The notes below the pieces were generated by a model. The model did not search any database and was not told the DNA's origin. It saw nothing but the letters and a program-made list of their open reading frames with translations. Positions 62,798 through 63,165 of a DNA stretch of 64,000 nt are shown in pieces; positions within the stretch are counted from its first letter, which is position 1, and each line of letters opens with the position of its first letter. The position numbers and the translations under genes were made by a program. The DNA comes from Devosia sp. LC5 (lineage in GTDB: Bacteria > Pseudomonadota > Alphaproteobacteria > Rhizobiales > Devosiaceae), in contig NZ_JNNO01000034.1 of NCBI RefSeq assembly GCF_000735585.1, positions 62,001 to 126,000 of the forward strand, given 5' to 3'.

Positions 62798-62842
62798 GCA
62801 CCCGTAGCTCAGCTGGATAGAGCGCTGCCCTCCGAAGGCAGG
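62798..62842 (+). pseudogene. Truncated tRNA-Arg (CCG), 5' half
   Basis: It contains the 5' acceptor strand GCACCCG, D arm GCTCAGCTGGATAGAGC and the anticodon stem-loop CTGCC-CTCCGAA-GGCAG (anticodon CCG at 62832-62834). After 62842 the sequence departs: no variable loop, T arm or acceptor 3' strand. A duplicated, shortened copy of a tRNA gene, as left by an integrating element. Confidence 0.8.
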
Positions 62843-63088
62843 GCTAAGTCAAGCCTGCTGTAGGCGAGTGGCGAAAAAATAGAGGAAAACCAAGCGATTG
62901 GTGAAGCTGGGAGGAAGTAACAAAATCGGTTCCGAGGTCGCGGAAGCACCACGGAAGCAAACTGAAGGAGGTTGTAGAGAACGAACGGCGAGGATCGGCA
63001 GGGTTATGCACCCGTACCGTTTGAGCCGATTCGATTACTGGATTCGGGATTGACCCTGTTCGGTCTCGGACACTATCTGAACATTGAT
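62843..63088. mobile_element. Likely scar of an element between two tRNA-Arg copies
   Basis: A 246-bp stretch with lower GC and an A-rich start (GCGAAAAAATAGAGG), lacking a clear gene. A fragment ATGCACCCGTA at 63005-63015 resembles the tRNA 5' end again. The only ORF, on the minus strand, has no recognised domain. Confidence 0.4.
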
Positions 63089-63165
63089 GCACCCGTAGCT
63101 CAGCTGGATAGAGCGCCACCCTCCGAAGGTGGAGGCCACACGTTCGAATCGTGTCGGGTGCGCCA
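63089..63165 (+). tRNA. tRNA-Arg (anticodon CCG)
   Basis: Intact cloverleaf: acceptor GCACCCG / CGGGTGC, D arm with AGCTCAGCTGGATAGAGC, anticodon stem CCACC/GGTGG with loop CTCCGAA (anticodon CCG at 63123-63125), T arm ACACG-TTCGAAT-CGTGT, discriminator G and encoded CCA at 63163-63165. Confidence 0.97.

Follow-up and report, generated by a model that had tools for sequence, protein, structure and literature searches.

tRNA-dependent lysogeny has been described in mycobacteriophages such as Fionnbharth, which are temperate phages of Actinobacteria; that report deals with tRNA-Lys and others, cites prophage Lj965 of Lactobacillus and shows the dependence by experiment (PMC10865867). Within Alphaproteobacteria, two prophages of Sinorhizobium meliloti inactivate the tRNA-Leu(UAG) gene and carry a functionally similar one (PMC11476347). 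A tRNA-Thr locus of Caldiarchaeum contains a 5' tRNA fragment and a complete gene 1.8 kb further on with a recombinase gene between them, an arrangement for which split and intron-bearing tRNAs are the proposed outcome (PMC3293823). Among conjugative elements, the tRNA-targeting ICEs of Mesorhizobium are characterized by an integrase, att sites, tRNA targets including tRNA-Arg, and conjugation genes (PMC8627217). In the open-access literature, no conjugative element that breaks its tRNA target and carries a replacement was among the matches listed, subscription journals lying mostly outside the search.

The window analyzed here is a stretch of 64,000 nucleotides from Devosia sp. LC5 (genome G000; contig C34, on which window position 62830 corresponds to C34:124830). 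Its segment 62798-63165 is very probably the attL of an ICE of approximately 67.9 kb residing in tRNA-Arg(CCG), whose cargo tRNA would replace the lost CGG-decoding tRNA (Table 1). This ICE has in common with the Fionnbharth-type phages a tyrosine integrase, an attB in a host tRNA gene, a short core from which the tRNA is not restored (approximately 10 bp in the phages, 12 bp in the ICE) and an element-borne tRNA of the same isotype as the target, the host tRNA being apparently single-copy; in contrast to the phages, it is conjugative, belongs to Alphaproteobacteria, targets tRNA-Arg(CCG) and carries its tRNA beside the att site, and the dependence that was experimental in the phages is deduced here from sequence (PMC10865867). 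The strategy appears to match the one already described for phages, here in conjugative elements. The S. meliloti elements resemble the ICE in being alphaproteobacterial and in breaking a tRNA gene while carrying a substitute, but they are prophages, concern another tRNA and comprise two cases (PMC11476347). The Caldiarchaeum locus shares the layout of fragment and complete gene, but is archaeal and involves an intron-containing tRNA and a 1.8-kb element (PMC3293823).

Table 1. Features at the left end of the element, in window coordinates
Feature	Position	Strand	Basis
Native tRNA-Arg(CCG) 5' half, host side of attL, presumably non-functional	62798..62841	+	Repeat of complete tRNA; no tRNA call
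attL crossover core CTCCGAAGGCAG, 12 bp	62830..62841	+	Repeated at attR, G000:C34:192736
ICE left end: spacer with putative integrase arm site and putative cargo-tRNA promoter	62842..63088	+	Homologues, column conservation
Putative integrase arm-type site GCGGAAGCACCACGGAAGCA	62940..62959	+	Identical 20-mer 149 bp inside attR
Putative -35 box TTGACC of cargo tRNA	63050..63055	+	TTGACC in 53/53 related modules
Putative -10 box CTATCT of cargo tRNA	63073-63078	+	
Complete element-borne tRNA-Arg(CCG), CCACC/GGTGG stem, encoded CCA	63089..63165	+	ARAGORN; Rfam 67.1 bits
Short ORF, probably a fragment; resembles part of ICE gene C34:182243-183193	63336..63518	+	Translations compared by eye
Start of Asp/Glu racemase-family gene, ICE cargo; ends at C34:126411	63686..64000	+	Pfam PF01177

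As the original prediction had described, a half tRNA-Arg(CCG) starting at 62798 is followed by a complete copy at 63089-63165, 291 bp away. The two share a 44-nt direct repeat (62795-62838 and 63086-63129, 95% identical, spacing 291), and the first copy diverges from the complete one past the anticodon arm, where it had been said to end. The complete copy is the sole tRNA called in the window by ARAGORN and by Rfam at the gathering score; the half scored 24.9 bits, under the Rfam gathering score of 29. The predicted difference in the anticodon stem was likewise found, namely CTGCC/GGCAG in the half versus CCACC/GGTGG in the complete copy. The 11-base third fragment pointed out at 63005-63015 is present, but it is missing (at ≤1 mismatch) from all 30 other distinct related spacers in a comparison of 54 modules, 37 of which have GGAAGCA-type arms, these 37 including 31 distinct ones with that of G000; therefore, it is treated as chance. 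Strongly conserved blocks of the spacer include the core, the arm-like repeats and the promoter-like boxes, and a generic sigma-70 scan requiring 9/12 matches reports no promoter in the window. Besides the tRNA, no Rfam match to the spacer reached the gathering score and permissive settings gave only sub-threshold extras, on which ground a group I intron or other known RNA was rejected. Coding was rejected as well, as none of the six frames stays open throughout the 14 rows listed, G000 among them (frames as read, indels uncorrected).

Searches for the missing 3' half and for an integrase in flanking DNA, suggested in the original prediction, located both and support its view of a separate gene broken at the anticodon arm by an integrase-type insertion. 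At C34:192736, 67.9 kb downstream of the attL core at C34:124830, CTCCGAAGGCAG is followed by the missing tRNA 3' half in the same orientation as attL, forming attR. A tyrosine integrase ORF of 450 aa (C34:191200-192552; Pfam Phage_integrase PF00589 and Arm-DNA-bind_3 PF13356) starts 184 bp from the attR core and reads away from it. The 20-mer GCGGAAGCACCACGGAAGCA has one copy close to either end and no further match (≤4 mismatches) in the 120 kb scanned, and is a putative arm site of this integrase. tRNA-targeting ICEs usually bring the 3' end of their target tRNA with them and so keep it intact. In contrast, attL of the Devosia ICE yields no tRNA in ARAGORN, so that no intact host tRNA is rebuilt at the junction as it would be by a tRNA-restoring genomic island; joining the two host flanks gives a tRNA-Arg(CCG) call.

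The genes between the two ends encode TrbB, TrbE, TrbG, TrbL, a TrbI/VirB10-like protein, a TraG coupling protein, an RlxS-like relaxase and a transglycosylase-domain protein. The relaxase scored 578 bits against the RlxS model, under the cut-off of 850, and the TrbI-like match is also under the cut-off of its model. The racemase, TetR-like, MFS-like and other genes past 63.2 kb (named by eye except for the racemase) lie between attL and attR, that is, inside the element, as had been suspected for this DNA. With integrase, flanking att repeats, T4SS genes, coupling protein and relaxase (below the RlxS cut-off) found together, the element is, judged by its gene content, an ICE. A viral or phage origin was rejected: Trb, TraG and relaxase are among the proteins scanned, the layout patterns gave 0 matches in viral_contigs for both spacings, and phage records match tRNA-like parts (best 20 of 74 records). 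A second TrbE homologue, 87% identical, lies at G000:C45:80476-82902 and probably belongs to another ICE.

Comparison with relatives distinguished the native gene from the foreign one. Relatives in the genus keep the sequence immediately ahead of the half (query positions 1-45), and in them an unbroken tRNA-Arg(CCG) that has the CTGCC stem comes after it; the exception is G006, whose copy is broken. The gene to the left of the half is lytic-transglycosylase-like (named by eye), and such a gene likewise adjoins the site in five of the 13 loci examined in relatives (L012, L017, L019, L020 and L021), several of the others beginning too near the tRNA to reveal the left neighbour. The complete copy has an upstream sequence unlike the native one and a stem differing by two compensated pairs. 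From these comparisons, the half is taken as the native gene and the complete copy as foreign. An intact tRNA with the CTGCC stem at the same syntenic place, named in the original prediction as evidence against it, is present in the relatives and absent from G000; in the relatives it supports insertion.

The nearest relative is G006, probably Devosia neptuniae (loci C2:991445-991495 and C1:383321-383400; L012, L013 and L137). Its chromosomal tRNA-Arg(CCG) is broken, with an anticodon reading CCA, and its only detected complete Arg(CCG) sits on a 533-kb plasmid, which may be essential through this tRNA. The right flank of G006, 1.2 kb past the broken gene, is colinear with C34:251569 onward and not with the DNA adjoining attR, indicating that 58 kb right of attR (G000:C34:192800-251568), which are not adjacent to the site in G006, are either missing there or extra in G000. 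No integrase was found in C34:192800-251568 among ORFs of ≥130 aa inspected by eye. AsmA proved useless as a right-flank marker, as it was found in 1/11 relatives, about 0.9 Mb from the site.

A whole-genome tRNA search of the 47-contig assembly gave 43 matches, among which ARAGORN types one Arg tRNA each for ACG, CCG, CCT and TCT; the only Arg(CCG) is the cargo copy, and tRNA-Arg(TCG) was not found. tRNA-Ile(GAT) and Ala(TGC) were not found in this assembly either, which may therefore lack rRNA-operon DNA, so that a second tRNA-Arg(CCG) could be overlooked. In two host genes, 26 of the 127 Arg codons are CGG, and in five ICE genes 73 of 339. From these codon counts and established decoding rules, a CGG-reading tRNA is presumably essential. 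In the proposed mechanism, the tyrosine integrase of the ICE (C34:124830-192736) would insert the element at the anticodon loop of the host tRNA-Arg(CCG), and because merely the 12-bp core is common to element and host, integration would break the host gene. The ICE-carried tRNA-Arg(CCG), located 247 bp inside the core and probably expressed from its own putative promoter, would replace the lost CGG-decoding tRNA, and cells with the integrated ICE would depend on this tRNA to survive. On excision, the two parts of the host gene would come together again and work, and the element is probably still mobile.

The arrangement recurs across the order. Among 75 genomes of the genus, the spacer was detected in G000 alone, and at E≤0.001 it matches 6 of 397 genomes of the order, with homologues of identical layout in G165, G313 and G335. 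A stem pattern (≤2 mismatches) matches 16 of the 397 genomes, comprising nine with half and complete copies, one (G282) with intact and complete copies and six with a single tRNA; with G313 added from the spacer matches as the tenth, the half-plus-complete layout is present in 10/397 genomes. BLAST with the tRNA detected one full-length Arg(CCG) in each of these ten; among the other matches, four at 79% are Arg(ACG) and one at 80% is Arg(TCT), the weaker ones being typed in G000 alone. Seven genomes (G000, G165, G313, G128, G347, G160 and G273) have a TrbE homologue and a related integrase, 65-100% identical, on the contig that carries the layout. In 6/7 of them, TrbE falls between the layout and the closest related integrase, the exception being G160, where TrbE follows the nearest of three related integrases and precedes the next. 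TrbE and integrase share a contig separate from the layout in G282 and in G259, the integrase of the latter being merely 31% identical; no TrbE homologue was found in G335 and G191, and the G191 integrase is also 31% identical. The empty site was rebuilt from 11/11 attL/attR pairs of eight genomes with cores of 9-16 bp, while attL alone gave no tRNA in ARAGORN, a lenient join test that also accepted G160 joins with stem halves from different tRNAs. These pairs leave out G259 and G191, which have no recognizable attR, and include a G335 pair spanning two contigs. A short-spacer class with an offset of 167-179 bp is represented by four genomes.

A scan of named species genomes for the half and a 5' tRNA start separated by N(250-278), an intact first copy also being allowed, revealed 53 loci, which form 23 groups at 90% identity; this is a lower bound, as the short-spacer class lies outside the scan. 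The first copy is not called a tRNA in any of the 53 loci, while the second is called tRNA-Arg(CCG) in 51/53, odd in L158 and uncalled in L199, where the sequence ends. The original prediction's implication that the complete copy is a second host gene gives way, since it is part of a conserved element-end module. An arm-like repeat (≤3 mismatches) is present in 51/53 modules, and TTGACC stands 39-41 nt ahead of the complete tRNA in 53/53, versus 1.3% in shuffles. Named members represent at least five alphaproteobacterial orders (Hyphomicrobiales, Sphingomonadales, Rhodobacterales, Acetobacterales and Rhodospirillales), as assigned from six member species looked up; many of the loci are titled MAGs, whose contigs can be misbinned. 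In a Methylobacterium MAG (L158:1362-1438), the cargo tRNA stem is mismatched (CCACC with GGCA), resembling a chimera of cargo and native genes. Methylobacterium nodulans plasmid pMNOD01 has one copy of the module, a lone remnant without complete tRNA (L033:6001-6304). The idea of a self-standing mobile unit of approximately 290 bp, which came from the M. nodulans match, was dropped once attR and the ICE had been found.

This recurrence bears on the reading of the locus as an ordinary tRNA-restoring island, whose attL tRNA was damaged later and which has a second tRNA-Arg downstream by chance. Although such elements occur at the same tRNA site in the genus, some of them with related integrases, a broken half with a complete copy was found at 53/53 loci and in 10/397 genomes, with arm-like sites in 51/53 and TTGACC in 53/53. 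Damage would not be so uniform, and the explanation is therefore disfavoured and regarded as improbable. The integration scar of the original prediction, that is, a junction left behind by an element now gone, has a possible parallel in the pMNOD01 remnant, with no integrase among 10 annotated features within about 6 kb. However, the presence of the 3' half, integrase, relaxase, coupling protein and T4SS genes on the same contig identifies the junction as that of a resident ICE and makes an old scar very improbable here.

Two similar copies 291 bp apart could also be expected from a tandem duplication of the host tRNA gene followed by decay of the first copy, but the complete copy is without the native upstream sequence, two compensated pairs set the stems apart, and the absent 3' half is located at a distance of 67.9 kb; contradicted by attR, a duplication has hardly any likelihood. 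Equally little credence is given to the half tRNA and spacer forming a functional RNA. The spacer is indeed conserved in parts, but among the strongly conserved blocks are the core, the arm-like repeats and the promoter-like boxes, and the half together with the first spacer bases has no more stable a fold than shuffled sequences (z -0.02).

With the locus read as attL of a resident ICE, comparison among modules provides some insight into how its strategy may have evolved. The module of Sphingomonas sp. Ant H11 is 99.7% identical to three Bradyrhizobium modules from tRNA start to cargo tRNA end, with no other long match in the flanks examined. Among 15 hand-picked module pairs, similarity ends at the cargo tRNA end in seven and continues in eight, so the module can precede different DNA. 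At L163:3271-5063 of Bradyrhizobium japonicum in8p8, an ORF resembling a serine recombinase (named by eye) runs into the cargo tRNA, which suggests that elements arriving later, here of a second type, target this tRNA in turn. G160 (C5:136815-318732; L105, L110 and L112) contains three related integrases in a row and internal attR halves with GGTAG and GGTGG stems, of native and cargo types, and probably represents tandem ICEs, the later ones inserted in cargo tRNAs.

The G016 integrase is about 83% identical to that of G000 and groups with G313 and one G160 copy with support of 100/99, in a tree of 19 rows in which 4/16 inner branches are well supported and which left out the short or split copies L050, L051, L053, L055, L057 and L113. 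In G016 the host tRNA is rebuilt, and in the 49.6-kb stretch between tRNA and attR neither a further related integrase nor a TrbE, TraG or relaxase resembling those of G000 was found; this related integrase in a tRNA-restoring element implies that the integrase does not dictate the strategy. G282 (C196; L058 and L039) combines a rebuilt host tRNA-Arg(CCG) with a cargo tRNA-Arg(CCG) 315 bp further along, and may represent a stage between tRNA-restoring and tRNA-dependent elements. In the phage work, tRNA gain followed by loss of the long core is named as one possible path and left open (PMC10865867).

We lean towards the broader interpretation that a widespread alphaproteobacterial conjugative family breaks the host's only CGG-decoding tRNA through a core of 9-16 bp and supplies the replacement. 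If so, the element would be freed from matching the host T-arm and acceptor stem, transfer between orders would be allowed, losing the end of the element would be lethal, and G282 would supply the evolutionary intermediate left undecided in the phage work. The strategy described in phages would thereby be extended to conjugative elements of Alphaproteobacteria, predicting a tRNA-based stabilization mechanism for ICEs and accounting for pairs of half and complete tRNAs in genome sequences. The restoring G016, G282 with both features and the dependent G000 would offer a natural series for the evolution of tRNA dependence.
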